Both the position numbers and the translations under genes were made by a program. 64,000 nucleotides of DNA from contig CP013614.1 of the NCBI GenBank assembly GCA_001465115.1, positions 2,914,001-2,978,000 of the forward strand, given 5' to 3'. Origin of the DNA: Enterococcus silesiacus. Lineage in GTDB: Bacteria; Bacillota; Bacilli; Lactobacillales; Enterococcaceae. Within the stretch, counting starts at the first letter, position 1. Each line of letters begins with the position of its first letter. Of this stretch, positions 46,453 to 64,000 are shown in pieces. Under the pieces are notes generated by a model. The model did not search any database and was not told the origin of the DNA. It saw only the letters and a program-made list of their open reading frames with translations.

Positions 46453-46488
46453 ATTGTTTAGATCAAGTCAATTCTATTAAAAAATGGA

Positions 46489-46517: not shown

Positions 46518-46523
46518 TTAAAC

Positions 46524-46617
46524 GAAATCATTCTTATCAACGTACAAAATACGATGATAAAGTAGTTGGAGCATTCGTGCTTCTTCCAGCCTGGTTCTTT
46601 TAGAATCAGGTTTTTTA
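46524..46617 (+). ncRNA. candidate small RNA between jag and the YbjQ-like gene
   Basis: A consensus-like promoter and, ~94 nt later, a clear terminator (CCTGGTTCT/AGAATCAGG and six T). The 5' half has a small hairpin (CGTA...TACG), and a second stem has a TTCG loop (GAGCA-TTCG-TGCTT). No ORF with a ribosome site lies in it. Other parts of 46405-46732 hold the jag terminator and a family A repeat. Confidence 0.65.
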
Positions 46618-46632
46618 TTTTACCAAAAATAA

Positions 46633-46721
46633 CGTGGCTAGGACATAACTCTGCGAGTCACATTCTAGCCACGTAAAATCCAGATAAACGGTGGGAGCAA
46701 AAGCAACTCTGTCCCAACCTC
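46633..46721 (-). repeat. family A hairpin-terminator repeat, copy A6
   Basis: CGTGGCTAGGACATAACTC hairpin (46633-46673) with the tail ATCCAGATAAACGGTGGGAG and TCCCAACCTCG. Nearly identical to A2. It lies immediately after the YbjQ-like gene, tail first, followed by a T run on the minus strand. Confidence 0.8.
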
Positions 46722-46732
46722 GTTAATCCTAT

Positions 46733-47077
46733 TTAGCCAATATTTGTTTGCGTAAACTGAACCACTGTTCCATAAGCAAAGATCTCCACGACCCATTTTC
46801 CTTGATATTCCACATATTTTTCTTCAAAATGACAGTTGATCACAGCATCTGCTTCATATTCAAAGGCGATCATTTTTAGTTGTCGATACACACCACTGAA
46901 GACTTCATTTGGATTGACATCAGGTGAAAATAGATCTGTCTCAATTCGATCTGTTGCAAAAACAATATCCCGAACGATATACTTTTTACTAACATTTCCT
47001 GTAGATAATGTGATTCCACTTAAACGATTTTCTAATTCTTGTTCATCGAATTTATCTTTTTTTGTTCGTTTCATCAT
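46733..47077 (-). CDS. YbjQ-like (heavy-metal-binding domain) protein
   Basis: 114 residues. The central IVRDIVFATDRIETDLF and AFEYEADAVINCHFEE...VEIFAYGTVVQF segments match the YbjQ/PF01906 fold, a pentameric beta-sandwich protein of unclear function sometimes called metal-binding. The N-terminal 30 residues are a charged extension. It points against the surrounding plus-strand genes. Start codon: MMKRTKK, ATG after GGAGG. Confidence 0.75.
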   Translation of the reverse strand: MMKRTKKDKFDEQELENRLSGITLSTGNVSKKYIVRDIVFATDRIETDLFSPDVNPNEVFSGVYRQLKMIAFEYEADAVINCHFEEKYVEYQGKWVVEIFAYGTVVQFTQTNIG

Positions 47078-47165
47078 AGGAACCTCCTTGCTTTATATAA
47101 ATTTATTTTAAAGATAAAGCAGAAGAAATGCAAAGTTAACGAATGCTTTTAGTAAATAAACAATC

Positions 47166-47194
47166 TTGCGAAAAATATAAAAATATGCTATTCT
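47166..47194 (+). promoter_or_regulatory. promoter of the small RNA at 47201
   Basis: TTGCGA (47166-47171), 17-bp spacer, TATTCT (47189-47194). Confidence 0.5.
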
Positions 47195-47200
47195 ATGTCA

Positions 47201-47277
47201 AGAAATTAATAGGAATTGATGCAGTGAAAGTGCTAGATCCAACCTGAAAAAATAGGGGTGGAGTGGGCGCTTTTTTT
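47201..47277 (+). ncRNA. candidate small RNA or attenuated mnmE leader
   Basis: About 77 nt run from the promoter at 47166 to a terminator-like stem (47229-47245 with 47254-47271, several G-U and a few unpaired bases) and seven T. It has no ribosome site with a usable ORF. As mnmE starts 110 bp later, it could be an attenuator for mnmE instead of a separate RNA. Confidence 0.5.
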
Positions 47278-47328
47278 GTAGCCAAAAATCCATTTATACA
47301 TATGTTAAAAAAGATAGAAGTTGTTTAA

Positions 47329-47344
47329 CGTAATAATTATTACG
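47329..47344. promoter_or_regulatory. 16-bp palindrome upstream of mnmE
   Basis: CGTAATAATTATTACG, a perfect palindrome between the candidate terminator and mnmE. The half-site CGTAAT resembles Zur-type sites, but the spacing is 4 bp instead of 1 bp, so the regulator is unknown. Confidence 0.35.
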
Positions 47345-47387
47345 CGAAAAACAGCTTAATCCATTAGCGAAAGGAAGTCAGTCAAAC

Positions 47388-48785
47388 ATGCAACAAATAA
47401 CCTTAGAATTTGATACAATTGCCGCAATTTCAACGCCTCCTGGCGAAGGCGCAATCAGCATTGTTCGCCTAAGTGGCGATGAAGCAGTTGCGATTGCAGA
47501 TAAAGTGTACCGTTCCGGTAGTAAACAACTGTTAGATGTGCCGTCCCATACAATTCACTATGGTCATATCCTTGATCCTAAAGATGACAGCTTGCTAGAT
47601 GAAGTGATGGTTTCTGTGATGCGGGCACCGAAAACTTTTACCAGAGAAGATGTCGTTGAAATCAACTGTCATGGCGGAATCGTCGTTGTTAATCAGTTAT
47701 TGCAGCTATTATTAAGAGAAGGCGCACGTTTGGCTGAGCCTGGTGAATTTACGAAAAGAGCTTTTTTAAATGGTCGCATGGATCTATCTCAAGCAGAAGC
47801 TGTGATGGACTTGATTCGGGCGAAAACGGATCGAGCGATGCATGTTGCGTTAGATCAATTAGATGGGAATTTATCTTCTTTGATCCGCTCATTAAGACAA
47901 GAAATCTTAGAAACTTTGGCGCAGGTCGAAGTTAATATCGATTACCCAGAATACGATGATGTAGAGGAATTAACGACGAAATTATTACTTGAAAAAGCTG
48001 GATTTGTCAAAGCCCAGATCGAAGGATTATTGACGACCGCTAAACAAGGAAAAATTTTACGTGAAGGCTTAAGCACAGCAATTATCGGTCGTCCAAACGT
48101 TGGAAAATCCAGTCTACTGAATCATTTACTACGTGAAGAAAAGGCCATCGTAACAGATATTGCCGGAACGACACGTGATGTTATTGAAGAATACGTCAAT
48201 GTCCGCGGTGTGCCTTTGAAATTGATCGATACAGCTGGTATCAGAGAAACAGAAGATATCGTAGAAAGAATCGGTGTAGAACGTAGCCGTAAAGCATTAG
48301 CGGAATCCGATTTAATTTTGCTCGTTTTGAATCAAAATGAGCCACTGACAGAAGAAGATCGCCAATTATTAGTAGCGACAGACGGATTAAAACGCGTGAT
48401 TCTACTAAATAAAATGGATTTACCTTCTCAATTAGATCGAGAAGCATTAAAACAGCTCGTTAATGATGAAGAAATATTACCCGTATCGGTTTTATCCAAT
48501 ACAGGGATGGAACAATTAGAACTAAAAATCGCAGACTTATTTTTCGGTGGTCAAACTGGGGAAAAAGATGCCACATATGTATCCAATACCCGCCACATCG
48601 CCTTACTAGATCAGGCAGCAATAGCGCTGGATGAAGTGATTCGCGGAATCGAAGCTGGAATGCCAGTTGATCTCGTTCAAATGGACATGACACGCTGCTG
48701 GGACTTTTTAGGTGAAATCGTCGGGGATAGTGTTCAAGACGAACTGATCACCCAATTATTCAGTCAATTTTGTTTAGGAAAATAG
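47388..48785 (+). CDS. mnmE: tRNA modification GTPase MnmE
   Basis: 465 residues. The N-terminal tetrahydrofolate-binding domain, helical domain, and G domain with [11 protein letters not shown] (near 228), [15 protein letters not shown] and LNKMD are all present. It ends in CLGK, the essential C-terminal Cys motif. With MnmG it installs the cmnm5 group at U34 of tRNAs. Followed 13 bp later by mnmG. Confidence 0.97.
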
Positions 48786-48798
48786 AGAGGAAGAGTCG

Positions 48799-50697
48799 AT
48801 GAATCAATTTAAAGCAGAATCTTATGATGTAATCGTAGTCGGAGCAGGTCACGCAGGTTCAGAAGCAGCCTTAGCATCCGCTCGTATGGGCAGTAAAACA
48901 CTGCTTCTAACAATCAATTTAGATATGGTGGCCTTTATGCCATGTAACCCATCTGTGGGCGGTCCAGCTAAAGGCGTCGTGGTGCGAGAAATCGATGCAC
49001 TAGGCGGCGAAATGGGTCATAATATAGACAAAACATACATCCAAATGCGGATGCTAAACACAGGAAAAGGTCCGGCCGTTCGCGCCTTGCGCGCCCAAGC
49101 GGACAAACACGCGTATGCTACTGAAATGAAGCACACAATCGAACGTACCGATAACTTAGCTTTACGTCAAGGAATCGTGGAACGCTTGATCGTAGAAGAT
49201 GGTATTTGTAAAGGTGTCGTCACAACAACAGGTGCACAATACCAAAGTAAAGCCGTGATTATTACAGCTGGAACAGCACTTCGTGGAGAAATCATCATTG
49301 GTGAATTAAAATATTCTTCAGGTCCCAATAATTCATTGCCGTCCATTGGTTTAGCCGATCACTTGAAAGAATTAGGCCTTGAAATGGACCGTTTCAAAAC
49401 AGGAACACCGCCTCGCGTGAAGTCTAGCACGATCGATTATTCTGTCACAGAAGAACAACCTGGTGATGAACAACCAAATCACTTTAGTTTCAGTACGCCG
49501 GATAGTGCTTATAATTTAGATCAACGCTCTTGTTGGTTGACTTATACAAATGAAGGAACCCATGAAATCATTCAAGGCAATTTGCATCGTGCACCGATGT
49601 TTACAGGAATCGTTGAAGGAGTAGGTGCTCGTTATTGCCCATCGATCGAAGATAAAATCGTTCGTTTCTCTGACAAACCTCGTCATCAATTATTCTTAGA
49701 GCCAGAAGGATTGAACACAGAAGAAGTATACGTTCAAGGACTATCTACTTCATTACCAGAAGATGTCCAAACAGATATCCTACATTCAATTGCTGGTTTA
49801 GAAAAAGCTGAAATGATGCGCACAGGTTACGCGATTGAGTACGATGTCGTCGTACCGCATCAATTACGCCCAACCTTAGAAACAAAAGTGATCGACGGCT
49901 TATTTACAGCAGGCCAAACTAACGGGACTAGCGGCTATGAAGAAGCAGCAGGCCAAGGTCTGATTGCAGGAATCAATGCCGCACTTAAAGTGCAAGAGAA
50001 AGAACCGTTCGTAATGAAACGTAGTGATGGCTACATCGGTGTGATGATCGATGACTTAGTTACTAAAGGAACGAATGAACCGTATCGTTTACTAACATCA
50101 AGAGCTGAATACCGCTTGATTTTACGTCATGATAATGCGGATCTACGTTTAACTGAAAAAGGGCATGAAATTGGTTTAGTCAAAGAAGACCAATATACAG
50201 CTTATCTTGAAAAGAAAAAAGCAGTCGAAGCAGAAATTGCCCGTTTAAGTTCAGTCAGAGTGAAGCCTACAACGGACGTACAAGCGTTTTTAGAAGAGAA
50301 AGGCTCTGTTCCGTTGAAAGATGGGGTCTTAGCTAGCGACTTCTTAAAACGCCCAGAATTGACCTATCATGAAGTCACTCAATTTATCCCAGCAGCAGAT
50401 ACGCAATTGGATGATAAAGTCATCGAACAAGTAGAAATTCAAATTAAATATGAAGGCTACATCAAAAAAGCTTTGGAAAAAGTCGATAAACTAAAACGCA
50501 TGGAAGCCAAACGAATTCCAGAAAATATCGATTATGAAGCAATCAACGGATTAGCAACAGAAGCGAAACAAAAATTGCAAAAAATCCAGCCAGAAACCAT
50601 TGCCCAAGCAAGTCGGATCAGTGGAGTGAATCCAGCAGATGTGTCGATTTTGATGGTGTATATTGAGCAAGGGAAGATAGCAAAGGTTAAGCCTTAG
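48799..50697 (+). CDS. mnmG: tRNA uridine 5-carboxymethylaminomethyl modification enzyme MnmG
   Basis: 632 residues. FAD-binding [19 protein letters not shown] near residue 13, [13 protein letters not shown], and the C-terminal helical domain that contacts MnmE. It is the partner of MnmE. In many Firmicutes rsmG and parAB follow, but here the conserved run stops and an accessory region begins. Confidence 0.97.
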
Positions 50698-50757
50698 AAT
50701 GTTTATGTACCAAAGATTTATATAGATATTGATTCTCATTTGTTAATACAGAATTAC

Positions 50758-50830
50758 AAAAAACTACATTTTCTTTGAAATTTTGATCTCGAATACCGAG
50801 TCTCAATTTTTCTTGGAGAATGTAGTTTTT
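50758..50830. terminator. long imperfect hairpin after mnmG
   Basis: A ~33-bp imperfect stem (AAAACTACATTTTCTTTG... with ...CTTGGAGAATGTAGTTTT) around a CGAATACCG apex, A/T-flanked on both strands. Acts as a likely terminator for mnmG and for the convergent gene; unusually long. Confidence 0.6.
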
Positions 50831-50930
50831 CCATTATTTAAGCCTAGTAAAAGCTATAACGTAAAAAAATATAGGTTCGTTGGCCTGTTAAATAAATGGT
50901 AAGCGACTTTAAATGAAATAGAAACTACAG

Positions 50931-51326
50931 TCACTCACTTTTTTTCTCATAGGCAATTCCTTCACCAAAAGACCAATTTTCTACAGAAACTTCATTAAAA
51001 AGAATGAATACATTTTCTTTTTTTATCGTCGTTTGTTCGTCTATACGATCTGCAATTTTTTGATAAGAAACTTTTTTTTGCTCGCTTGTTCTACCTGGAA
51101 AACAAAATATTTCCAAATAAATGAACTGATTCGTTCTGCTATTTTTATTCAGTGGGTACTTTTCATCAACGAAGCTAGTATTCTTAGTTAAAGGAACCCA
51201 AATTTGAAAAGAATCATTTTCTGGAACATCAAAAGATTCTACCAACGCCGTATGAATACTTTCGTTTACTTTTTGGACTGTGAGCACATCAAAATCAAAT
51301 TCATGAAAAACTTTTATAAAAGCCAT
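50931..51326 (-). CDS. tautomerase-family-like protein lacking the catalytic Pro1
   Basis: 131 residues. The fold pattern (FIKVFHEFDFDVLTVQKVNESIHTALVESFDVPENDSFQIW...YLEIFCFPGRTSEQKKVSYQKIADRI) matches the tautomerase_2/MIF-like family. In those enzymes the residue after Met is Pro and acts as the general base; here it is Ala (MAFIKV), so the usual chemistry should be lost. Divergent from the broken LysR gene, its probable regulator. Confidence 0.7.
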   Translation of the reverse strand: MAFIKVFHEFDFDVLTVQKVNESIHTALVESFDVPENDSFQIWVPLTKNTSFVDEKYPLNKNSRTNQFIYLEIFCFPGRTSEQKKVSYQKIADRIDEQTTIKKENVFILFNEVSVENWSFGEGIAYEKKSE

Positions 51327-51432
51327 TGTAATTCCTCCTTGCTGTTCTATTCTTTTAGTATATCGGTGTTGAAGGGTTATAGATAATTCATTTTTGGGTG
51401 TATAATTATGCTAAAAAGTGATGGAGGTGGAC

Positions 51433-52321
51433 ATGATTGATATAAAAGAATTGGTAACTTTCAAAACGGTTGTTGAACAACAAGGCTTTTCAGCGGCAGC
51501 AGATTTTTTAGGTTACTCACAACCCAACATTACAAAACATATAAAAAAGATAGAGGAATATGTTGGGTTTGAACTCTTTGTTAGAGGGTGGTTTTCATCT
51601 TTGACAAAGCAAGGAGAACTTTTTTTATAGAGAAGTGGATGACTTGTTGGATCACTGGAAGAGTGTATTAATTATTTCTGATGAAATAGCGAATGAACAG
51701 ATAGGGGAAATTCGAATAGGAATCACAGAATCTTTGGCTAAAAAAATCATTCCTAAAATCATAGAATGGTTGGAGGTATACAGACCAAAAATGATTGCTG
51801 AGTTTGATATGGGGAATACGAAGCGAATGTATGAACTTGTTCAAAGCAATAAAGTAGACATGGCTTTTTGTGGAGAAGATGTTGAGTCGGCTTATCATTT
51901 GGAGTTTAAGAAATTTGCAGAGGAAAGGATTTTATTTGTCGTCTATGCAGATCATGCACTGTTAAACAAAGACACGTTGACATTAACAGATATTCTTGAG
52001 TATCCATTAGTCATGGGAGATAAAACGTGTATCAGTAATCGGAAATTTATGAAGGTGTTAGAAAAAAATAAATTATTACATAGGTTAAAAAAACAGTATG
52101 TCTGCTCAAATCCGATGTTAATTCCAGATATCTTACCAGCTAATTATGTTGGTATATTAACGAAATCAAATATGACTGAGAAAACAGGTGACATTGAAAT
52201 ATTAGAGTATGAGGATAGTGAGCTAGAAATGATATACGGTATTATTACAAAAAAGAGAGAACATGATTATCTAGAAAAGACAACAAAAAAGCTGATTGAA
52301 TTATTAAAATATGAATTTTAA
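51433..52321 (+). pseudogene. LysR-family regulator with a frameshift in a T7 tract
   Basis: The first part (from ATG 51433, GGAGG upstream) is a LysR winged helix (ELVTFKTVVEQQGFSAAADF...GYSQPNITKHIKKIE) that hits a stop at 51630. Removing one T from the run of seven at 51620-51626 restores GELFYREVDDLLDHW and continues, in frame, through a full effector domain to 52321. So one intact LysR gene has been broken by homopolymer slippage, by an assembly error, or carries a phase-variable tract. It is divergent from the tautomerase-like gene. Confidence 0.85.
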
Positions 52322-52493
52322 GAACTGGGGATGTAAGTTCCAGGTGAAATAAAATAGAAGACTGAAGATTGTACCGATCCTAAAAATGATTTTTAATCTT
52401 TTATTTTTTAGATAATTGGAAGAATATTCTGTATTCATCTGCTTGTTGAACAATATTTCTGATACACCTATTTATCAATAAACGAACATCGAA

Positions 52494-52518
52494 AAGGCTT
52501 GATACCAAGTCTTTTTTT
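52494..52518 (+). terminator. terminator after the LysR pseudogene
   Basis: The stem AAGGCTTG/CCAAGTCTT followed by seven T. Confidence 0.6.
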
Positions 52519-52533
52519 GTTTCATGTGAAACA
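52518..52533. other. parS-like site with one change
   Basis: TGTTTCATGTGAAACA differs from the consensus by one central base (C to T). It may be a weak ParB site. The remainder of 52322-52661 carries only the terminator and an AT-rich promoter region. Confidence 0.5.
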
Positions 52534-52661
52534 TTTTGTGTTTCTCAGACTTAAAATCAGCCTTTTTAGGGAGACTTTCAACAGTAAATCAACAGTTAAT
52601 AAGCACAAATGTAGAGTAAGATCGAAGTATAAATAAAAATCAAAACAAAGGAGTGAAAACA

Positions 52662-53006
52662 GTGCGGACAATAAAAACCATCACCGATTTTTGGGAAGTA
52701 ATTGATGAAATAAGAATAAAAAAAGAACTAAATTGGTCAGATCTAGTTGGTGGCAAAGCTAAATTAGCGACTAGTCAACGATGGAATCTACCGCTAACGT
52801 ATATTCTTCAAATACAAAATAAATTGGACATGAATATTTTGAATACGATTGTTTATGAGTTATCTGAATTGGAACAAGTGGTTAGTAAAAATCCAGAAAC
52901 ACCAAATAAAATGAAGCTGATCCATAAATGGATTCAATCAGATAAGTGGATGGAGGATGAAGAAATCGTCAAAACAGTGCAAGACATAGCCAAGACGATT
53001 CTTTGA
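52662..53006 (+). CDS. uncharacterised 114-aa protein, possible HTH
   Basis: 114 residues from the GTG at 52662 (8 nt after AAAGGAG); a GTG three codons earlier overlaps the ribosome site. The N-terminal TITDFWEVIDEIRIKKELNW...GGKAKLATSQRWNLPLTYIL could be a short Cro-like DNA-binding helix pair but the match is weak. No signal peptide. It lies 26 bp upstream of an endolysin-like gene and may be co-transcribed. Confidence 0.5.
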   Translation: MRTIKTITDFWEVIDEIRIKKELNWSDLVGGKAKLATSQRWNLPLTYILQIQNKLDMNILNTIVYELSELEQVVSKNPETPNKMKLIHKWIQSDKWMEDEEIVKTVQDIAKTIL

Positions 53007-53032
53007 TAAAAACAAATTAAAGGAGCTAAAAA

Positions 53033-53797
53033 ATGAAAAATGTAGAAAAAATGATTCAATGGATGACAGACCGAAAAGAAAAAGTTACCTATTCGATGAA
53101 TGCTCGGCTAGGACCTAACAGCTATGATTGCTCGAGTGCAGTCTATTTCGCTTTGATTAATGGAGGTTTTCTTACTAGTGGGATGATGGGCAATACAGAT
53201 ACTCTGTTCTTACATTTAGAAAATGCAGACTGGACTCAGATACAAGCAGATGAAACTGGAAATTATCCGGCTAAAAAAGGAGATATTTTTATCTGGGGAA
53301 ATCGTGGAGCATCAGGAGGAGCGGCTGGTCATACGGGAATTTTCGTAGATGATCAAGATCGAATCATCCATTGTAATTACGGCTATAATAGCATTACGAT
53401 CAATGATCATGATACGATTTGGAGAGTAAATGGATGCCCTGTGATAACGATTTACCGCTATAAAAAAAGTGAAAGTAATCAGCCGAAACCGCAGCCAAAC
53501 AAGCCCATCCCTCAACCCGAATCACAAAAGCAGTCATCAAATTTGATTTCCATGACGGGAACATTCCATCCAGATCGAAAACTAGCGGTCAGTCGGGATA
53601 CTGATCCAGACGATCATACTAGTCCAGCACTCGATTATTATTTATCTGGTATGGCAATCAACTATGATCACTATATTCATAGTAATGGCTATGTTTGGAT
53701 CAGCTATATCAGTCATGGTGGTGCGCGCCGTTATGTCGCGGTAGGACCAGACGATGGTCGGACAGATACGACCTGGGGAACTGGTTTTTTTAATTGA
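53033..53797 (+). CDS. peptidoglycan hydrolase, phage-lysin type (amidase_5 plus SH3)
   Basis: 254 residues. The first ~145 residues match amidase_5/Pal-type cysteine hydrolases (MIQWMTDRKEKVTYSMNARL, GPNSYDCSSAVYFALI with the catalytic Cys; GHTGIFVDD with His). A Pro/Gln linker (~155-175) leads to a C-terminal SH3_5 domain (GTFHPDRKLAVSRD...YVAVGPDDGR). There is no signal peptide, as in holin-dependent endolysins. No phage structural gene is nearby, so it may be a prophage remnant or a bacteriocin-like lysin. Confidence 0.85.
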   Translation: MKNVEKMIQWMTDRKEKVTYSMNARLGPNSYDCSSAVYFALINGGFLTSGMMGNTDTLFLHLENADWTQIQADETGNYPAKKGDIFIWGNRGASGGAAGHTGIFVDDQDRIIHCNYGYNSITINDHDTIWRVNGCPVITIYRYKKSESNQPKPQPNKPIPQPESQKQSSNLISMTGTFHPDRKLAVSRDTDPDDHTSPALDYYLSGMAINYDHYIHSNGYVWISYISHGGARRYVAVGPDDGRTDTTWGTGFFN

Positions 53798-53903
53798 TCA
53801 ACTAAGAGATAATTTAGATATTAAAGGAAAGAGTCTTGCCTATAAAAAACAGCAGAATCTTGCTATAATGATGAAAAAGTAATGCTAGAGGGAGTGCCAA
53901 TTA

Positions 53904-54878
53904 ATGAAGACCAATTTTGTAGAAAGTGAATTTGCTCCGTTAAAAAGAGTGGTTTTAGCCCAATCACAATTTTATCTGCCAGAAGAGGAAAATGAATTAG
54001 ATACAAGTTTTTTATCTGAAAAGAACCTCGATCTTTTTGATCATAAAGTTGGCGATGTAGCTGATCTTTACCCGGATATGCAAACAAAATGGGAAAATGA
54101 AAAAGTGCAGATGGCTCAATTATTAACTTCATATGGTGTAGAAGTTATCCGGCCACGGATGCTAACAGAATTTGAAAAAGAATCAGGGAAACAGAGCGGA
54201 CGCGGCTATGCCAATTTCTTTTCAAGAGATCCATTTTTCACAATCGGTCATTTCGTCATTGAGGGGAATTTGAGATTTCCTCATCGACGTTTGGAAGTCT
54301 TACCAATTCGAGCTATTTTAATTGAGGAATCTAAACATCCAGAAGCGATTTATGTAGCAACACCACAGCCAGATATTTCACAAGGATCAGCAAGTGAAGC
54401 AGGGCCGTTTCTAGAAGGTGGCGATGTTTTAGTGTATGGTAAAACAATATTTGTTGGGTATTCAGGTTTAGCGAGTAATTTAAACGGCATCAGCTGGTTG
54501 AAATCACTTTTAGAGCATTGGGATTACAATGTCGTACCTGTACGTTTGCATCCAGATATCTTGCATTTGGACTGTGCACTGAGTATGGTAAAAGATGGTT
54601 TGATGATATACTGCGAGGAAGCATTTTTGGATGGTGTGCCTCGAGAATTAAAAAACTGGGACAAAATCAATGTTTCGTTAAAAGAAGCTTCTTTATTGAT
54701 GACAAATGGCCTGCCACTGAATGAATCTGTCTATATCACTGACCAATCATTTACAAAATTGATAGCAGAATTAGAAAAATATGGAATGAAGGTCGAAACA
54801 TTAGACTATGAAGTCTCAATGACCTTTGGCGGTTCCTTCCGCTGCACCACGCAAGCATTATTAAGAACAACTAACTAG
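53904..54878 (+). CDS. amidinotransferase/arginine-deiminase-family enzyme
   Basis: 324 residues. FLEGGDVLVYG, HLDCALSMVK with the catalytic His, and GGSFRCTTQ near residue 315 with the nucleophilic Cys place it in the guanidine-modifying superfamily (dimethylarginine hydrolase, glycine amidinotransferase and relatives). Which guanidino compound it acts on cannot be decided. ATG after GAGGGAG. No arc operon genes are next to it. Monocistronic by spacing. Confidence 0.8.
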   Translation: MKTNFVESEFAPLKRVVLAQSQFYLPEEENELDTSFLSEKNLDLFDHKVGDVADLYPDMQTKWENEKVQMAQLLTSYGVEVIRPRMLTEFEKESGKQSGRGYANFFSRDPFFTIGHFVIEGNLRFPHRRLEVLPIRAILIEESKHPEAIYVATPQPDISQGSASEAGPFLEGGDVLVYGKTIFVGYSGLASNLNGISWLKSLLEHWDYNVVPVRLHPDILHLDCALSMVKDGLMIYCEEAFLDGVPRELKNWDKINVSLKEASLLMTNGLPLNESVYITDQSFTKLIAELEKYGMKVETLDYEVSMTFGGSFRCTTQALLRTTN

Positions 54879-54906
54879 CTGATAACTTTAAAAAAACGAA
54901 AAGAAG

Positions 54907-55395
54907 TTCAGATTTTTACCAAATAATTGTAATAAAGAAGCCAATTTTTCAACATAAAAAAGTCACAATTTCGGGTTATTATATATTCATACCAAACAAC
55001 CCTAACAAAACACTTTTTCATTTTTTAACTCCTTTTCCCACTCTCCCCCAAAGAGTGGGTTATTTGTTGTTCATCACTCCACTTCGTTTCGATCTCATCA
55101 AACTCTAAGTGCTGAAGCACTAAGAATTGAAGGACTACGACTGGCTCCGCCAGAGTAGATGATGAACAATACTTGGCGACCGAAGGGAGAGAAGTTACCT
55201 TACTAGTGAATCACCTAACGCCTAACGCCAAAAAAAGTAGTATAGTAATAATGATAAGTAACAGTTATTAATCAAACGAAGATAACAGGCACGTTCGGAA
55301 TTACGAAGAACAAAGTGAGTAGATGATGAACAATACAAGGCATGCAAAGAGAGAGAAGTTGAATCACCAAAAATCTAAACCTAAAAAAATAGACC
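54907..55395 (+). repeat. family C mosaic repeat, left copy flanking the surface-protein gene
   Basis: 54925-55070 is almost identical to 60596-60756 (AATAAAGAAGCCAATTTTTC, GGTTATTATATATTCATACC, the CCCACTCT/AGAGTGGG terminator stem at 55037-55059). The similarity continues through the core (CACTCCACTTCG...TTACTAGTGAATCACC) to about 55291 (AAACGAAGATAACAG). It is in the same orientation as the right copy. Confidence 0.8.
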
Positions 55396-55493
55396 TTACA
55401 CAACCAGAATCGTTATATTTCGTTAAAATCCAATCAAAATAGGAACCCGAAACCCCTTTTTAAAATAAGCTGAAACCACAAAAATGTTTTTTT

Positions 55494-55836
55494 GGCTCTA
55501 TACTTTCTGATGTTGGTGAGAAATCACCGGCATCTTTTTTAATGCAAAATAATAGAAAAGACACCCTGATATCCTTTAGAATTAAGTCGACGAAAACCAA
55601 TCAAAAGGGGAAATCAAGATGTCCTATACAAATCTTATCAAAGAAACCATTAAAGTGTTGAAGAGAAATGCATACGGCTTTCGTAACTTTTACAATTTCA
55701 AGTTGAGAATTTCTTTATGTTTTGGTACGATTCTTTTTCAAGAAAATAAAAAACCTAGAGAAAAGTTCCTCTAGGAATCATACTAATCGATTTAATTCTT
55801 TGGTTTTTCTTTACCAACATTAGTTGACAAAGAGCC
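55494..55836. mobile_element. 343-bp internally deleted ISL3-like element
   Basis: The ends are related inverted repeats: GGCTCTATACTTTCTGATGT then TGGTGA on the left, and its imperfect complement (ACCAACATTAGTTGACAAAG then AGCC) on the right. An 8-bp direct duplication GTTTTTTT (55486-55493 and 55837-55844) flanks it. Inside is a 51-codon frame with the C-terminal end of an ISL3-type transposase. It is a non-autonomous derivative that inserted into a terminator loop. Confidence 0.8.
55619..55774 (+). pseudogene. ISL3-family transposase, C-terminal remnant
   Basis: 51 residues, MSYTNLIKETIKVLKRNAYG followed by FRNFYNFKLRISLCF; the LKRNAYGFRNFYNFKLRI end is the characteristic close of ISL3 transposases. 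The N-terminal ~380 residues and the catalytic DDE triad are missing. Confidence 0.75.
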
Positions 55837-55897
55837 GTTTTTTTGTGGTTTCAGCTTATTTTTTATAATTTTATCTTGCTGCATAGAAAACAAGGGT

Positions 55898-58800
55898 TTA
55901 TTTATGGTGTTTTCCTTTTCGTTTCTTCCAGAAAAGAAGTGATCCAGCTGCTCCAGCCATAAATGTACCCATTCCTTGGCCTAATAGAGAAGCTTCTGTT
56001 CCGGTGTTAGGAAGTCTTCTTTCAGAACGAGTATTTGGTAGTTTATTGCTCGAAGGATCAGTTGTTGTATTTATTTTTTTGGTACTTGTAACAACAGCTG
56101 TTCCTTTTTCTTCTGTTTTCTTCTTAGGATCTACTAATGCTACTGGTGCCTCGGCTAAATTGGCTGCGATAGGCGCGTCTAGTGTATTAGGTTCAATTGG
56201 TGCAGTAAGCTCGATCGGTTGTTCTACCGGTGGTGTTACTGGATCAACTGTTTCTGGTGCTATAACTTCAGGAATAACGGGTGCTTCAACGATTGGTGCT
56301 TCTTCTAACTCCTTAGGTTGATCTAAAGGGTCGACATCTGTAACATCGTCTAAATCGTTTAGCTCAACAGGAGCGTTAGGTTGAATGCTTTCCTCAACCT
56401 CTTCACTATCTAATTCCACATCAGTTACATTTTCAGAAGTATCTAACCCTACAATTGAATTAGGAGGAGTAGAGGCACGCTCTTCTGTTAACGTTGGTAG
56501 ATTGATTCCTGTGATTTCATCAAGTATTTTTGTTGAAGCAGCAGCTGGTGCAAGAGTCGGATTGGTTGGTTCTGTTATATTTTCAACCTTTTTAGGGATA
56601 TTGAGAACAGCTGGTTTTATAGGCATCATTGGCAAATCTGGTACTGACGGAATAACTGGCGGATTGATCTTTTTGAGTTCTAGTTGACCTAAATTCGGTT
56701 CGGAGACTTCAAATTTCAATTCTGGAAGTTCAGAAATAGGATCTTCTACTGTTTGTCCAGCTAAATATCTTGTGTATCTTAAAAAATTTCCAAATGAATT
56801 TATCCATGCATAGATTGAGGATTTTTTTGTAATAGCCATATAGGCTGTATATTCATCTACATTATCGCGTAGAGCATTTTTAACTCTTGTCATCATATTC
56901 TTTGCATTGATAGGAAGTGGATTCGTTTCTTCAGTCATTGTAACGTTACTTTGAGTCGCCTCATTAAACTCTTTTATAGATTCAGACATTACTGCTTTAG
57001 CCTGATCCCACTTTTCAGCTACTTCATTCAAATATACAGCCAAGGTTTCAAAATTTTCAAGTTGTTTTTCACCAAATTTACTATAAGTATCTATAATTAG
57101 ATTTCGATTTTCTGGAGTATCCTCCATATTTAACAGTATTTCATCAGTATATCCAATAAGAGCATAAGTTTTATCAACCGGAACGTTTACAATATCAACC
57201 CATTTTGGCATCTCATTTTGATATGGGTTATTATAATCCCATTCAGCTGTATATTTTTCAAAAGCCACTTGATAATCCGAATAACTTTTGTAATATGCTT
57301 GGTATGCAGCAGCCTTAACAAGGTTTTGTTTTAGTGTAGCATCCGTCTCTTTATTAAAATCAATTATATCACCTTTAAAATTTGCTGGATCGTAGACAAC
57401 CTCTACTTTATTAATTGGTGCAATTGAACTACTATTATAAGCATCGTTCTTGGCCTGATATTCTTCAATGATTGGCCATGATGTTGTTAGGGACGTGTCT
57501 AAATTTGACTTAGCAACATCATATTTTATTTGCCATGCTGCTAAGTCAGCTAGAATATTTTCAAGATTTGCTTCTGTGATTTTATCATTTGGAAATTCAG
57601 TAAGAATGTTATTCATACCAGTAATAGCAGTATTGATTTCACTTTCAGCAACAACCGCCTTCTCATAAGCAGCAACTGCATCTTCATATGGTTTTCCAGC
57701 AGTAGCGAAACTTTCTGTTGCAAGATCGTACTTAGTTTTTAGATCGGTAAAGAGAACAAGTACTTTATCATGGTCGACGGTAAGAATTTTTAATTTTTCG
57801 TTTGCCTTTTGATAGTCAGTGTCCGCCGCTTTCCACGCATCGTTTGCAGCGGTATATGCTTTGTCAATGTCCTTATACTGTCCGTGAAGCTTTTTAAAGG
57901 AGTCTGTTATGTCTGTGTATTCTTTTGAAACAGCTGCGAACTCTGCTTCATGAGTGTTTTGCTCAGCTGTCACTTCGCCTAATTTAGTCGAAGTCGTATT
58001 ATATAGTTTCAAGGTTTCGTCATATTTCGTTTTTAGACCAACATAGTAAGCCGCTAAATCAGTATATTCTTTCTCGCGAAGTACAAAAGTTTCTTTCGCA
58101 TTGGAGATGGCTGTTGCTGCTGTTGTATACGCTGTTTCGGCGATAATATATTCGGCATCTAAATCAGCAAATTGTTTCGTTATTTTATCATAATTTACTT
58201 TTGTTTCAGCATATTGTGTTTCTAAAGCTGTGTATTGTTTTTTGGTTCCCTCTAATGTTTCGCCTAATTTAGTAAAGGATGTTTCAGCTGTAGCCAATTC
58301 AGATTTTAGCTTTGTTAATTCCTCTGCCAGTACTTGATATTCCGGTAAAAGACGGTCATATTCGATACGCGCTTTTTCATATTTTTGGTTAGCAGCCTCG
58401 TATGTTTTGTTTGCCTCGATATATTTCGCATCTATGATATCAAAGGCTTCGGATCCGCTTGTAAATTTCGCAGATACAGCGTCATAGGATTCTTTTAACA
58501 GGTCATACTGGATTTTTACTTCAGCAGACTCTGTGATTGCTGCTTGATGAGCGGTTTCTGTTTCTGCGTAGAGCTTCATGACTTGAGTATAGTTGGTGCT
58601 GATAGTTTGATAATCTATCTCCAATTGTAGGAAATCACTTTTCGCTTGCTCATATTGTGCAACAAGAGAGTCGTATTGTTGTTTGACAGACTGATAGGAG
58701 GTAACCATTTTTTGATAATCAACTGTTGCAGTTTCATATGCGGTTTGAACCTCCTTAAACGTTGTGGTGAGTAAATCTGTCTGCTCTTTTACTTGTTGAT

Positions 58801-60184
58801 ATTCTTTGTTTACTTCGTTATAGCGATCATTATTTTCATTGTAGGCAGCTAAAGCTGTTGAATATTCTACAGTACCTTCTTCATACTGCTTTAGAATCAT
58901 TTCCGCGGCGGTTCTTTTTTCATTATAGGCATTTAAATCTGTTTCATAAGCAGTAAGTTTAGTATCGTATTCAGCTTTTTGTTGATCATAGGCTGTTTTA
59001 TCTGTTTCATATGCTTTAGTTTTCAGGTCAAAGGCCGTTTTTTCAGTTTCGTAGGTTGTACGTTCCGTTTCATATTGAGTTGCAAATTCATTTAATTGAC
59101 TTGATAGCGTATCATAGGTTGTTTTTGCTTCATCATACGCTTGTTTGGTAGTGATATAATCTTCTTTGATTTTATTATACTCAGCAAGTTTATGCGCATA
59201 ATCGGTTATTGATACTGTCAACTCTGATAAACGTTTTTCATAGGTTGTTTTATCAGTTACATAACTTACTTTAGCTTCGTTATACTCAGTTAACAGTACG
59301 TTATATTCTTCAAGTGCTTTATCATAGTCTGATTTCACTTCAGTGTAGCTAATTTTTGCTGTTTCAAGTTCAGTTTTTAAGGTATTGTATGACTCAGTAG
59401 CCAGATTGAATGCTGTAGCTTTCGTATCATACGCTGTTTTTTTTGTATTATAATTGTTAAGTAGAGTTTCGTAAGCAAGTTTTTGTGAATGATAGTCCGT
59501 CAATTGGGTATTGTATTTACTTTTAGCTTCGTTGTAGGCTGTTTGAGCGATTCTATATGCTGTTGCGGCATCTTCATAAATTTTTCGATTTTTTTCGTAC
59601 TCTATTCTTAAGTTTTCGTAGAGTGTTCTTTTTTCTTCCGCATCTTTGTTCAAGGTTTCATATTTCGCTTGAGCGTTTAAATACTTCGTCTGCATCTCTA
59701 TAAAAGTTGATTCTGTATCATTGTAAAGAGTTTGTTCTGCTTCGTAAGCCGCTTTGGTTTCATTGTAAGTTTCAATATGTGCTTCGTAGTTAGACTTATT
59801 TGTTTCATATGTAGCTTTATGTGTGTTATACGTTTTAGTCGCTTCATCAAAAAGGGTTGATTGTTTTTGATAGGTTTCTTTTAATCCCTCTAAAGTTGTT
59901 TTAAGTTTATCCGCAGTTTCATAGGATTTATCCGCGTCACTTTTGGAGGTATTGTAGTCTTCTAAAGCAGCATTGTATTTTTTTGTAGTCTCGTCGTACT
60001 CTGTTTTAGCTGTTGTATATTCCTCTAATATACTCGTATAATCTTTTGCTGACGTTTCTTTAGTTGGTTGGTTTATCTGCGCTACGGTTGTAGCTAATAC
60101 TTGTATAGGACTACCAGATCCTACCAGAAATACACTTGAAAACAATAAAAATTTAAACGAACCTTTTCTCCATGAGTCATTCAT
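55898..60184 (-). CDS. giant tyrosine-heptad coiled-coil LPNTG surface protein
   Basis: 1428 residues from the ATG at 60184 (AAGGAAGG 13 bp upstream); a longer frame starts at 60223 before the ribosome site. Signal peptide to about residue 32 (ends IQVLATTV). Residues ~50-900 repeat Tyr every 7 positions (Y-x6-Y-x6...), a regular heptad with no Pro, likely a long coiled-coil rod. Then a globular region (~900-1200), a Pro-rich wall-spanning stretch and LPNTG (1391-1395) with membrane helix and basic tail; another LPNT precedes it (LPNTRSERR). Sortase substrate, probable adhesin; no ligand known. Confidence 0.88.
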   Translation of the reverse strand: MNDSWRKGSFKFLLFSSVFLVGSGSPIQVLATTVAQINQPTKETSAKDYTSILEEYTTAKTEYDETTKKYNAALEDYNTSKSDADKSYETADKLKTTLEGLKETYQKQSTLFDEATKTYNTHKATYETNKSNYEAHIETYNETKAAYEAEQTLYNDTESTFIEMQTKYLNAQAKYETLNKDAEEKRTLYENLRIEYEKNRKIYEDAATAYRIAQTAYNEAKSKYNTQLTDYHSQKLAYETLLNNYNTKKTAYDTKATAFNLATESYNTLKTELETAKISYTEVKSDYDKALEEYNVLLTEYNEAKVSYVTDKTTYEKRLSELTVSITDYAHKLAEYNKIKEDYITTKQAYDEAKTTYDTLSSQLNEFATQYETERTTYETEKTAFDLKTKAYETDKTAYDQQKAEYDTKLTAYETDLNAYNEKRTAAEMILKQYEEGTVEYSTALAAYNENNDRYNEVNKEYQQVKEQTDLLTTTFKEVQTAYETATVDYQKMVTSYQSVKQQYDSLVAQYEQAKSDFLQLEIDYQTISTNYTQVMKLYAETETAHQAAITESAEVKIQYDLLKESYDAVSAKFTSGSEAFDIIDAKYIEANKTYEAANQKYEKARIEYDRLLPEYQVLAEELTKLKSELATAETSFTKLGETLEGTKKQYTALETQYAETKVNYDKITKQFADLDAEYIIAETAYTTAATAISNAKETFVLREKEYTDLAAYYVGLKTKYDETLKLYNTTSTKLGEVTAEQNTHEAEFAAVSKEYTDITDSFKKLHGQYKDIDKAYTAANDAWKAADTDYQKANEKLKILTVDHDKVLVLFTDLKTKYDLATESFATAGKPYEDAVAAYEKAVVAESEINTAITGMNNILTEFPNDKITEANLENILADLAAWQIKYDVAKSNLDTSLTTSWPIIEEYQAKNDAYNSSSIAPINKVEVVYDPANFKGDIIDFNKETDATLKQNLVKAAAYQAYYKSYSDYQVAFEKYTAEWDYNNPYQNEMPKWVDIVNVPVDKTYALIGYTDEILLNMEDTPENRNLIIDTYSKFGEKQLENFETLAVYLNEVAEKWDQAKAVMSESIKEFNEATQSNVTMTEETNPLPINAKNMMTRVKNALRDNVDEYTAYMAITKKSSIYAWINSFGNFLRYTRYLAGQTVEDPISELPELKFEVSEPNLGQLELKKINPPVIPSVPDLPMMPIKPAVLNIPKKVENITEPTNPTLAPAAASTKILDEITGINLPTLTEERASTPPNSIVGLDTSENVTDVELDSEEVEESIQPNAPVELNDLDDVTDVDPLDQPKELEEAPIVEAPVIPEVIAPETVDPVTPPVEQPIELTAPIEPNTLDAPIAANLAEAPVALVDPKKKTEEKGTAVVTSTKKINTTTDPSSNKLPNTRSERRLPNTGTEASLLGQGMGTFMAGAAGSLLFWKKRKGKHHK

Positions 60185-60589
60185 TAAAGAACACTTACCT
60201 TCCTTTTTTTGTAATAATATCAATATAGTAAAAATATAAAATCTTTAAGGAATTTATATTTATATAAATGTAAGTATACAATATTTTCAAGTTAGTTATT
60301 TATCATGTTTTTCTATGTGGTTACAATTTTTTGATAATCATATTTGGATAATAATAAATAAAACTGTTTATTAAAAAAGATTCATTGGAATAAAATGTAT
60401 ACATTAGTAGGGAAATAGAAAAATTATACGAAATATGAATTTCATAGAGTGAATGGTGAAGATCGGTTGTATCTACACTATTAGATTTTATAGTTTTACT
60501 GACAATCAAGAAAAAATAAACTAAAAGTAGGAATATGAAAAAACAGTAATCTGACTGTTAGCATAATACATAAATGAAACGAAAACTTC
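60185..60589. other. AT-rich gap upstream of the surface-protein gene
   Basis: About 400 bp with the gene's ribosome site and a candidate minus-strand promoter (TTGAAA with an 18-bp spacer and TATATA near 60260-60295). I see no gene or RNA in it. Confidence 0.5.
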
Positions 60590-61280
60590 GGATTTTCGCC
60601 AAACAATCATAATAAAGAAGCCAATCTTTCAACATAAAAAAGTCACACTTTCGGGTTATTATATATTCATACCAAACAAACAACCCTAACAAAACACTTT
60701 TTCATTTTTTAACTCCTTTTCCCACTCTTCCCCAAAGAGTGGGTTATTTGTTGTGAATCACCACGACTGGCTTTGCCAGAGTGGATGATGAACAATACTT
60801 GGCGACCGAAGGGAGAGAAGTTACCTTACTAGTGAATCACTCCACTTCGTTTCGATCTCATCAAACTCTAAGTGCTGAAGCACTAAGAATTGAAGGACTA
60901 CGACTGGCTCTGCCAGAGTAGATGATGAACAATACTTGGCGACTGAAAGGAGAGAAGTTACCTTACTAGTGAATCACCAAACGCCCAAGGCCAAAAAAAG
61001 TAGTATAGTAATAATGAAAAGCAACAGGTATTAATCAAACGAAGATAACAGTCCACGCCACTTCATTCCGATCTCATTGTTGTAAATCACGAAGAACAAA
61101 GTGATTCGATGATGCACAATACAACGTGTCTGAAAGACACATTGCTTCCTTTATTTTCTAAGTGCTGAAGCACTAAGAATTGAAGGGCCATGACTGGCTC
61201 AGCCAGAGTAGATGATGAACAATACAAGGCCGTGTGCAGCAAGAGAGGTACCTTTAACTAGTGACTTACCAGAAGACAAA
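60590..61280 (+). repeat. family C mosaic repeat, right copy flanking the surface-protein gene
   Basis: 60596-60756 matches 54925-55070; next come two tandem family C cores (60765-60842 and 60890-60978) separated by the ACTCCACTTCGTTTCGATCT to GAATTGAAGG segment, then a degenerate core near 61187-61262 (ACTGGCTCAGCCAGAGTAGA). The hairpin stem GGC...GCC is kept while its loop varies (TTTG, TCTG, TCAG). Direct repeats of the left copy bracket 5.2 kb. Confidence 0.8.
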
Positions 61281-61405
61281 ACCTAAAAAAGTAATAGAAG
61301 CACAGGTCAACCTATCAAAAATAAAAAATTGATGTTCATTTTTCGAAAGAACCTTCTGTCAATCCGCAGTACACTAAAGAAACAAGATGAAGGGATTGAT
61401 GATCA

Positions 61406-62233
61406 ATGAATGAAACTAAAACAGCGTATTTTAGAAAGGCTCACCGAAAGGATAAGCCACTTATTTTACTAAATATTTGGGATGTAGCTAGCGCAGAGGA
61501 ACTGACAAGGAAAAAAATCAATTTGATTCCGACTGGCAGTTACGCAATGTCTGATTATTATGGCTATCAAGATGGTGAAAATATGCCTTTCGATGAACTG
61601 TTAGATTACATAAAACAAATGGACGCAAAAACCAACTATATCACCGCAGATATCGAATCCGGCTATGCTGCAAATACAGCAGACCTAGCAAAGAATATTG
61701 AAGCGCTCATAGACAGTGGTGTCATCGGTATCAATATTGAAGATAGACAACCAAATACCGAGACCTTGTATTCTATAGAAGAACAAAATGAGCGGCTATT
61801 GTGTATCAAACAAACATGTAACACTATGAAAAAGGATCTATTTATCAATATAAGAACGGACACTTATTTTGTTGGAGATGTCACCGCAAATAACCAAGAT
61901 GAACAAGTGTTAAATCAAACCATTGCTCGAATCAAAGCCTATGAAAAAACTGGGATTGATGGTATTTTTATTCCAGGTTTGAAAAACCAAGAACATCTCC
62001 AGCAAATAGCTGCACAAACCAATTTACCGATCAATATAATGCTAGATATTCAAAAAGATTCAATCTCAGACTATCTACATACTGGGATTTCAAGAATCAG
62101 CTTTGGTCCTTCGACCTATATGCTTTATAATGAAAGTGAAAATAACGATTTAGATGAATTTTATACGTCCTTACTAGCAGATCTAGCTCAATATGAGAAA
62201 CAAGAGCGTATAGAATTATTCAGAATAAAGTAG
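61406..62233 (+). CDS. isocitrate lyase/PEP mutase-family protein
   Basis: 275 residues. LNIWDVASAEELTR...LIPTGSYAMSDYYGY, ITADIESGYAAN and GINIEDRQ (the metal and substrate loop) place it in the PEPM/ICL superfamily, whose members make or break C-C or C-P bonds alpha to a carboxylate. The usual KKCGH of isocitrate lyases is missing, so true isocitrate lyase activity is unlikely. It is followed 15 bp later by the ada-like gene and is likely co-transcribed. Confidence 0.8.
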   Translation: MNETKTAYFRKAHRKDKPLILLNIWDVASAEELTRKKINLIPTGSYAMSDYYGYQDGENMPFDELLDYIKQMDAKTNYITADIESGYAANTADLAKNIEALIDSGVIGINIEDRQPNTETLYSIEEQNERLLCIKQTCNTMKKDLFINIRTDTYFVGDVTANNQDEQVLNQTIARIKAYEKTGIDGIFIPGLKNQEHLQQIAAQTNLPINIMLDIQKDSISDYLHTGISRISFGPSTYMLYNESENNDLDEFYTSLLADLAQYEKQERIELFRIK

Positions 62234-62248
62234 AGAGGGGAATGCCCA

Positions 62249-63298
62249 ATGATCGGTGAAAAGGAAAAAAAGCACTACTACCAAGCACTGCTTGCAAAAG
62301 ATTCCACCTATGACGGAATTTTCTTTGTTGGCATCAAATCAACCGGTGTTTTTTGTCATGCTACATGTCCGGCAAGAAAACCAAAGTATGAAAACTGCAC
62401 CTTTTACGAAACAGCAGAAGAAGCCCTTTTATCTGGCTATAGACCATGCAAACGATGCAAACCATTATCTTTTCCAAGAGAAATCCCGCCACTCGTTCAA
62501 AAAATGGTGGAGTTAGTAGAAGAAAATCCTGAAAAGCGTTGGAAAGACCAAGATTTCGCTGAATTGGGCATTCACTCGATGACTGCCAGAAGACAATTTA
62601 AAAAAGTCTATGGTATGACGTTTGTTCAATATGCGCGCTCAAGAAGGATGGGGATGGCCTTGAAATCAATCAAAAATGGGGAAAAGCGAATCGATACCCA
62701 GCTAGATGTCGGCTACGATTCACCCAGTGGATTCTATGATGCCTTTTCAAAAATCATGGGGAGAAATCCGAAGCAGTCAAAAGAGATCAAAATATTATCG
62801 GCAGATTGGATTGATACGATTTTAGGACCGATGATGAGTATTGCGGATGACGACTATTTATATTTATTAGAATTTGTCGATCGGCGTGGCTTGGAAAGAG
62901 AAATTGAGCGATTACGGAATCGAATGAACGCTTCGATCGTTCCAGGAAAAACCAAGATCAACGAGCAGATCAAAGAGGAGCTGGATTTGTATTTTGAGAA
63001 GAAACTGGATGAATTTAGAACACCGTATCTGTGTTTAGGTTCTGATTTTCAGAAAAGCGTTTGGCAAGCGTTGACGGAAATCAAGCGTGGTGAAACTTCT
63101 TCCTATAAAGCATTAGCGCAAGCAATCGGAAATCCGAAGGGGATGCGAGCAGTTGGGAATGCGAATGGCGCGAATCAATTGGCGATCATTATTCCATGCC
63201 ATCGAGTGATTCAGACAGATGGTAGTCTGGGCGGCTATGGCGGCGGTGTGGAACGGAAGAAGTGGTTGTTGAAGCATGAACGGGAGTATGATTTGTGA
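62249..63298 (+). CDS. ada: Ada-type DNA repair methyltransferase and regulator
   Basis: 349 residues. N-terminal metal-binding domain with the four Cys (FCHATCPARKP...GYRPCKRCKP; first Cys near 31), AraC-type HTH (QFKKVYGMTFVQYARSRRMG), and the C-terminal O6-alkylguanine transferase with IIPCHRVI. It repairs methylphosphotriesters and O6-methylguanine and, once methylated, activates the adaptive response. Full three-domain form. SD GAGAGGGG. The PEP-mutase-like gene just upstream may be part of its regulon. Confidence 0.92.
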   Translation: MIGEKEKKHYYQALLAKDSTYDGIFFVGIKSTGVFCHATCPARKPKYENCTFYETAEEALLSGYRPCKRCKPLSFPREIPPLVQKMVELVEENPEKRWKDQDFAELGIHSMTARRQFKKVYGMTFVQYARSRRMGMALKSIKNGEKRIDTQLDVGYDSPSGFYDAFSKIMGRNPKQSKEIKILSADWIDTILGPMMSIADDDYLYLLEFVDRRGLEREIERLRNRMNASIVPGKTKINEQIKEELDLYFEKKLDEFRTPYLCLGSDFQKSVWQALTEIKRGETSSYKALAQAIGNPKGMRAVGNANGANQLAIIIPCHRVIQTDGSLGGYGGGVERKKWLLKHEREYDL

Positions 63299-63305
63299 GC
63301 GGCAT

Positions 63306-63350
63306 AAAAAGAGCGATAACCACTGCTAAGATGTGGGTATCGCTCTTTTT
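63306..63350. terminator. bidirectional terminator after ada
   Basis: A stem AAAAAGAGCGATA...TATCGCTCTTTTT with inner CCAC/GTGG pairing, between convergent genes. Confidence 0.85.
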
Positions 63351-63363
63351 CTATAAACTGTAT

Positions 63364-64000
63364 TCACCAACCGCCAGAAAAACCGCCACCGCCTGATGAA
63401 CCACCGCCACCAGAACTTCCTCCTCCGCCACTGGATGAACCACCGGAATCGCTACTGTGATAGCTTGAGGTACTGAAATGCTGTAACGTTTGATATCTAG
63501 CAAAATGGATTCCTGGTATTGCTCCTAAAAATAAACATTTATCAAGATCCATGATGGCTTTTTGATAATAGTCCGATTCAATTTTTTTAAAATCCTTCTC
63601 ACCTTTTTTAAAAGCTTTAGGCAATTCGCTTTCAAAGTTACCAGCTTCTTTAAAAAAATCTTCTTTACTGGTATCTTGACCTTTTAGCAGGTGATAGGAA
63701 ACGAGTAAAACCAGTAATTTTTCTTTTTGTTTTGTGTAAAATGATTTTGCTACATGCTCTTTTACATAGACTTGCACAATATTTCTCGTTTGCATGAACG
63801 CAACTCTAGCTTGAATGATTTTTTGTAAAATTTCTAAGTAGTCATTATCTGATTGCTTCAGTTTTGCTTGTAGTTGTTTTGTTGCTTGAGTGATGTTCTG
63901 TGGCTCTGTGAGGAAATCGCCTAAACTTTGGGCATACTCTTCATAGTAGCGCTCACTGATTTCCAAGCATAAGGTGCAATACGTTAGCTTGTTAGCTTCG
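63364..64000 (-). CDS. protein with a Gly/Ser-rich C-terminus (start outside window)
   Basis: The frame stays open to the window edge: before a TTG at 63966 it reads EANKLTYCTLCLEISERYY, so the gene begins beyond 64000 and the Met assigned at 63966 is not needed. At least 211 residues are seen. Most of it is helical and charged; the last 35 residues are (S/G)-rich, with GGGGSSGGGGFSGGW at the end, a tail known from TPM-type and YgcG-like membrane-linked proteins. The CTLC pair could bind metal. Family not identified. Confidence 0.6.
   Translation of the reverse strand, partial: EANKLTYCTLCLEISERYYEEYAQSLGDFLTEPQNITQATKQLQAKLKQSDNDYLEILQKIIQARVAFMQTRNIVQVYVKEHVAKSFYTKQKEKLLVLLVSYHLLKGQDTSKEDFFKEAGNFESELPKAFKKGEKDFKKIESDYYQKAIMDLDKCLFLGAIPGIHFARYQTLQHFSTSSYHSSDSGGSSSGGGGSSGGGGSSGGGGFSGGW

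Follow-up and report, generated by a model that had tools for sequence, protein, structure and literature searches.

A tyrosine-striped, wall-anchored protein of Enterococcus silesiacus whose stalk most likely resembles that of AgI/II

We analyzed a stretch of 64,000 nucleotides from Enterococcus silesiacus (contig CP013614.1, positions 2,914,001 to 2,978,000; hereafter, the window), which contains a gene for a wall-anchored protein that we call the stalk protein. Tyrosines recur every seven residues along most of its length. We think that the stalk protein is probably a sortase-anchored fibrillar adhesin: its tyrosine-heptad helix, probably folded near Gly437, would be zipped to an antiparallel polyproline II (PPII) arm, and it would carry a variable helical tip. 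In this view, which we consider the most likely one, the tyrosine stripe is buried and acts as the zipper of a stalk like that of streptococcal antigen I/II (AgI/II), possibly with a three-stranded layout. At the level of sequence, this proposal builds on the stripe itself, a period of 3.00 residues in the arm, a helix without insertions or deletions (indels), an arm that is nearly free of them, a switch of the conserved face at the heptad of Gly437, and a separate history of the tip.

From the N terminus, the parts of the protein are a signal peptide, the helix (residues 46–866), the tip (867–1150), the arm (1171–1357), a linker that is short and variable, and the LPNTG motif with its tail. 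Numbering of residues starts at an ATG (window position 60184, minus strand), which gives a protein of 1428 residues and agrees with the coordinates in an earlier annotation; a longer open reading frame (55898–60223, minus strand) begins at a TTG. The features are, in window coordinates:

55898..60184, minus strand: gene of the 1428-residue wall-anchored stalk protein, from the ATG start at 60184, stop included
60092..60184, minus strand: predicted signal peptide region, residues 1–31, judged from the sequence
58877..60049, minus strand: first half of the stalk helix, residues 46–436, with the tyrosine stripe and a second conserved face at +4
58865..58885, minus strand: heptad YEEGTVE, residues 434–440, with the only invariant glycine of the stalk (437); proposed site of fold-back
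57587..58873, minus strand: second half of the stalk helix, residues 438–866, with the tyrosine stripe and A/L/V/I at +3
56735..57586, minus strand: tip domain, residues 867–1150, predicted all-helical, rich in indels, with a tree unlike the stalk's
56114..56674, minus strand: proline arm, residues 1171–1357, with a 3.00-residue period; proposed PPII return strand
55901..56014, minus strand: sortase signal, with LPNTG (residues 1391–1395), a hydrophobic stretch, and a basic tail

Just ahead of LPNTG is LPNTR, at residues 1382–1386. The protein scores 18 bits with Gram_pos_anchor (cut-off 20) and 18.8 with TIGR01167 (cut-off 15.9).

The tyrosine stripe and the proline arm

A first-pass annotation of this DNA had noticed a tyrosine or phenylalanine every seven residues, and an analysis of heptad phase agrees: 79 of the 81 tyrosines in residues 46–866 share one phase (the exceptions are 88 and 713), while the best phase held at most 24 tyrosines in 2,000 shuffled controls. 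Similarly, tyrosines seven residues apart (Y-x6-Y) occur 57 times in residues 46–920, versus 8.0 expected. The stripe has 117 positions, with Y at 79 and Y or F at 94, and its longest unbroken run of Y/F is 12. The annotation's figure of about 120 tyrosine heptads is therefore correct as a count of heptads but not as a count of tyrosines, as only about 80 of the positions are tyrosine. Its broader description is supported: the rod would be helical and very long, striped with tyrosines, and displayed by a sortase motif.

The annotation also suggested that the stripe is exposed at the surface and that it may cross-link, bind carbohydrate, or form staggered filaments. The stripe is real, but it is the most conserved position of the heptad (majority fraction 0.90) and is 95% hydrophobic, as for a core, and it is paired with a proline arm that has the periodicity of PPII. 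On the strength of this conservation, we set this idea aside as highly improbable. Besides the stripe, a second hydrophobic position occurs at +3, chiefly in the C-terminal half of the helix; this position, the separate tip domain, and the three-residue period of the proline arm go beyond what the annotation described.

To find homologs, we used a query of 400 amino acids (about residues 829–1228), which matched 18 of 22 genomes from the genus and 18 of 105 genomes from the family, with every match within Enterococcus. Two relatives, from Enterococcus ureilyticus and E. crotali, have 60% and 69% identity in their best segments. We aligned 17 intact full-length proteins (the one from the window and 16 others, 38–68% identical to it), leaving out L002 (the same record as L028), L003/L037, L040, and L041. 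The gene is split across two frames in E. crotali (L003/L037, which are one locus) and in genome G002 (L040).

Relative to the protein from the window, the 16 homologs show no indel events in residues 41–866 and 3 in residues 1193–1357, versus 87 in the tip (867–1150), 16 in residues 1151–1192, and 25 in residues 1358–1390. Since a fixed length would not be expected for a disordered tether, we take helix and arm to form a single unit that is locked in register.

The arm has runs such as PVIPSVPDLPMMPIKP. A PPII helix has three residues per turn. Averaged over the 17 homologs, residues 1171–1357 have their strongest period at 3.00, both for proline and for proline plus hydrophobic residues, and 0 of 500 permutations equaled it in either case. 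For prolines in the window's protein by itself, 1 permutation in 300 matched the observed strength. The arms of three AgI/II-type proteins, which we used as controls, also peak at 3.0 (0 of 300 permutations each). We propose that the arm is a PPII strand running back from the tip toward the wall, antiparallel to the α-helix and zipped to it, and that the tyrosine rings would fill pockets between the prolines, as in AgI/II.

Profile comparisons point the same way. With hhalign, the family profile matched the three AgI/II-type proteins (from two genomes) with a probability of 95.5 and E = 1.5e-8, on the A-region, versus probabilities of 3.3 for SMC and 0.1 for EzrA from the same genome as the stalk protein; this contrast is indicative, because only one sequence each was used for SMC and EzrA, against three for AgI/II. 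In two-sequence comparisons with BLASTP, the E values were 1e-4 for AgI/II and 0.092 for SMC.

The two helix halves and the proposed fold-back

The two halves of the helix differ in which face is conserved. Hydrophobic residues occupy the position at +3 from the stripe in 26 of 55 heptads in residues 46–436, versus 52 of 61 in residues 439–866 (Fisher test, P = 2.2e-5). Invariant positions at +3 and +4 number 4 and 19 in residues 109–434 and 16 and 3 in residues 441–860 (P = 2.9e-5); the first stretch starts at residue 109 because the spacing of the tyrosines is irregular before that. An unsupervised split of the +3/+4 contrast (using heptads from residue 49 on) was best at heptad 434, or YEEGTVE (0 of 2,000 permutations), and a split on hydrophobicity at +3 alone was best at residue 458 (0 of 2,000 permutations). 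The glycine of this heptad, Gly437, is the sole glycine of the stalk that is kept in all 17 homologs.

A reversal of direction would move the conserved face from +4 to +3, as happens at heptad 434, so we infer that the helix folds back there. Lengths lead to a similar suggestion. Each residue adds 1.5 Å to an α-helix and 3.1 Å to a PPII helix, and with these textbook values the arm comes to about 58 nm, while the helix would reach about 123 nm. The ratio of helix to arm in residues is 4.39, versus 2.11, 2.48, and 2.68 in the AgI/II-type controls, whose boundaries were set by hand. Since the helix has about double the length that the arm could pair with, its N-terminal half most likely doubles back near Gly437. 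The result would be an α-α-PPII bundle of about 60 nm that holds up the variable all-helical tip. The proposed fold-back draws on statistics of the sequence and on geometry.

More tentatively, we can imagine a specific form of this stalk. It would be monomeric, with two antiparallel tyrosine-striped helices of about 400 residues each, which are joined at the invariant glycine and clasped by one PPII arm; and it would serve as a mast of fixed length for tips that are exchanged among Enterococcus species, with a gene that is often bracketed by direct repeats.

Several results weigh against a zippered, folded stalk. An AlphaFold model of residues 166–1365, from three sequences, has a mean predicted local distance difference test score (pLDDT) of 51.2 and a predicted template modeling score (pTM) of 0.26. 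The arm is unstructured in this model, with confidence of 22–34, and the long helices of the stalk break at 307–311, 574–578, 700–703, 800–804, and 828–833 but not at 437. Confidence drops to 33–39 across residues 426–455 (the flanks are mostly at 67–84), and this dip may reflect the model's uncertainty about a turn, but confidence is also below 50 at residues 694–709 and 746–840. At this level of confidence, the model neither supports nor excludes a different fold such as α-α hairpins, which the annotation had named as a refutation of its reading. An analysis of charge pairing does not favor a turn at 437 either (z = 0.71); the best local turn center is residue 302 (z = 2.77), which is near AlphaFold's first break. 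Within the arm, residues 1261–1357 (its second half) have a significant period for proline plus hydrophobics (0 of 500 permutations) but not for proline by itself, where 67 of 500 permutations were as strong.

Comparisons with known families and structures also weigh against such a stalk. In scans of the protein, the AgI/II A-repeat (PF06696) was below its cut-off, with 17.7 and 18.5 bits; in a six-frame search it reached 26.0 bits, which was flagged as over the cut-off of 26, and only 3 genomes from the genus matched there at E = 0.001. A single-sequence search for solved relatives had no hits up to E = 1, and with the family profile there were four, all weak (E = 0.0084 to 0.056). The tyrosine spectra of the AgI/II-type controls peak at 6.3, 6.3, and 3.55 residues, with no clean peak at 7, because their heptad runs shift phase; their commonest gap between tyrosines is 7. 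Finally, the NCBIfam model of SMC matches the stalk protein with E = 9.1e-20 (70.1 bits; the cut-off is 567), so much of the helix resembles a generic coiled coil in single-profile searches. Other coiled-coil models match below their cut-offs as well.

These coiled-coil matches, together with the long helices and the disordered proline region in the AlphaFold model, would fit a straight coiled-coil dimer or trimer of about 120–130 nm with tyrosines in its core, in which the proline region is a disordered linker that spans the wall. We consider this unlikely. In a free linker, we would expect neither a hydrophobic period of 3.00 residues nor a near absence of indels between neighbors that are rich in them. 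Also, a uniform rod gives no reason for the face to switch at 434, and hhalign favors AgI/II over the SMC and EzrA of the same genome.

We give still less credence to another kind of folded helical bundle, with or without the arm, whose turns lie elsewhere, such as near residues 302–311 and 576. AlphaFold's first two breaks and the best charge pairing are near these sites (309 has z = 1.82), and Gly577 is kept in 14 of 17 homologs. On the other hand, confidence in the AlphaFold model is low, high charge scores are spread over residues 197–393 rather than at a single place, and 576 scores z = −0.21. Furthermore, the face switch and the only glycine that is kept in 17 of 17 homologs are both at 434–440. 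We prefer the stalk with a zipper and a fold-back near Gly437. Since length and register are invariant across 17 proteins, the proposed pairing of helix and PPII arm is open to simple truncation tests.

The tip domain and the locus

In an AlphaFold model of residues 780–1200, the tip is all-helical (mean pLDDT 60.8, pTM 0.46). Foldseek found no match in PDB for this model at E ≤ 0.001, and no Pfam family reached its cut-off in the tip. In a sample of 395 genomes from the order, which covers 80 genera, a profile of the tip had matches in 16, all from a single genus. To look for carriage on plasmids, we ran tblastn with residues 780–1200 against 72,556 plasmid records and found no match.

The tip has a different history from the rest of the protein. 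Across pairs of homologs, the identities of the first half of the helix, the second half, and the arm correlate with each other at 0.93–0.94, while those of the tip correlate with these at 0.21–0.24. The tip from the window pairs with that of L024 with support of 100/100. This pair is rejected by the tree of the stalk (approximately unbiased test, P = 1.1e-56) and by the tree of the arm (P = 0.0017); these P values are optimistic, as the pair was chosen after the identities had been seen. Four other pairs of tips (L033/L039, L034/L038, L025b/L031, and L025a/L030) are missing from the stalk tree, while L026/L027 are paired in both trees. Genome G001 has two intact copies of the gene, with tips from different clades. 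We did not use a tree test on a four-protein group without L028 as support. We read these results as swapping of tips between Enterococcus species on a conserved stalk. The variable tip probably binds a ligand, and the fact that it seems to be exchanged between species suggests that selection acts on what is bound.

A paralog in genome G015 (L041, 9472–10737) keeps the signal peptide and the tip without the helix, the arm, or the anchor. No remnant of the arm is seen within 530 bases downstream in any of the three forward frames. The joint absence of helix and arm speaks for the zippered stalk. This paralog is possibly a secreted free tip.

In the window, the gene for the stalk protein lies between two copies of a direct repeat, E175:

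54904..55078, plus strand: E175, about 175 nucleotides, on one side of the stalk gene
60584..60761, plus strand: second copy of E175, 91% identical, on the other side

After E175, both flanks have an interspersed repeat of about 140 nucleotides (window 54904–55391 and 60584–61293). A query of 387 bases that covers both repeats had 56 matches in the genome of E. silesiacus and was present in 22 of 22 genomes from the genus. Copies of E175 also bracket the stalk gene at 8 of the 18 loci that we fetched; at one of these, L028, one of the copies is partial.

Copies of E175 are found around other genes as well. In genome G012 (L075, 2815–8024), which has no match to the stalk gene, two copies of E175 bracket a protein of 1,559 residues with SdrD_B and Cna_B domains. 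Elsewhere in the genome of E. silesiacus (L074, 1418–2820; C1 at about 3.274 Mb), partial copies bracket a secreted-type gene that resembles EndoS, of family GH18. Genome G017 (L077, 7791–10257) has one copy of E175 between the same two genes that flank the stalk gene in the window, and our search did not find the stalk gene there; this looks like an empty site. E175 may mark exchangeable genes for secreted proteins, and recombination between its copies could explain the loss, duplication, and exchange of the stalk gene.

The stalk gene is single-copy in its own genome (in a search at E = 1e-5). Its neighbors are a deiminase-family gene on one side and a phosphoenolpyruvate (PEP) mutase-family gene on the other, and both are found again at several homologous loci. 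At the site in G017, the PEP-mutase-like gene appears as two open reading frames. Farther away, a LysR-type open reading frame (window 51335–52321) matches the substrate-binding domain only and has several stops upstream in frame, so the regulator looks degraded. We found no RNA families at gathering scores in window 44000–64000.

Comparison with AgI/II and other stalk proteins

In the open-licence literature, we recognized no publication that describes this stalk protein. Among enterococcal proteins, the surface exclusion protein PrgA is also anchored to the wall and has a long stalk that presents a distal domain (as outlined in part of PMC10588982). The stalk protein has a weak match to TIGR04320 (16.3 bits, versus a cut-off of 70). 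PrgA presents a protease domain, according to the same part of that source, whereas no protease family was matched in the stalk protein; from the TIGR04320 score and the lack of a listed protease family, we rejected membership in PrgA / SEC10. Also, in contrast to PrgA, the tip region is absent from the plasmid records that we searched. PrgB and other proteins with polymer adhesin domains are wall-anchored adhesins that hold a tip domain far out (a passage of PMC7726212), but the stalk of PrgB is made of Ig-like domains (PMC10588982, in part), and the stalk protein has no match to GbpC. The tetramerization motif of acetylcholinesterase has one PPII helix packed by α-helices (an excerpt of PMC8409303). 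That motif joins four chains in human acetylcholinesterase, so it is a precedent for the fold only.

The closest parallel is AgI/II (SpaP, SspA/B). In SpaP from Streptococcus mutans, the A- and P-domains interlock via heptad tyrosines of the A-domain, which sit in hydrophobic PxxP pockets (a section of the review PMC7732690, citing Larson 2010). The annotation's remark that no named family has this layout is therefore wrong in part, as this principle of tyrosine heptads in PxxP pockets is already known from streptococci; the layout and the tip do look new. The AgI/II repeat is counted among stalk domains in part of PMC8286594, and an excerpt of PMC13243192 lists PPII stalks of bacterial adhesins, referring to the same cited work.

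The stalk protein and AgI/II share the order of helix, tip, proline arm, and LPXTG anchor; an A-region-type helix with tyrosines at gaps of seven; and a PxxP arm with a period of 3.0. They differ in that the stalk protein has a single heptad phase throughout, a ratio of helix to arm of 4.39 (2.1–2.7 in the controls), and a tip that is predicted to be all-helical. They also differ in their domains: GbpC/V (PF08363), AgI_II_C2 (PF17998), and Antigen_C (PF16364) were not listed for the stalk protein at E up to 10 and are present in both of the controls that we scanned, and the P1 N-terminal domain (PF18652) scored 16.6 bits, below its cut-off of 27.1. We rejected membership in AgI/II because the tip and C-terminal domains are absent. 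Judging from its sequence, the stalk protein probably works like AgI/II, yet is no member of that family. If this is true, then the α/PPII hybrid stalk of streptococcal AgI/II extends to a chromosomal family of Enterococcus, in a form that is longer and perhaps three-stranded.

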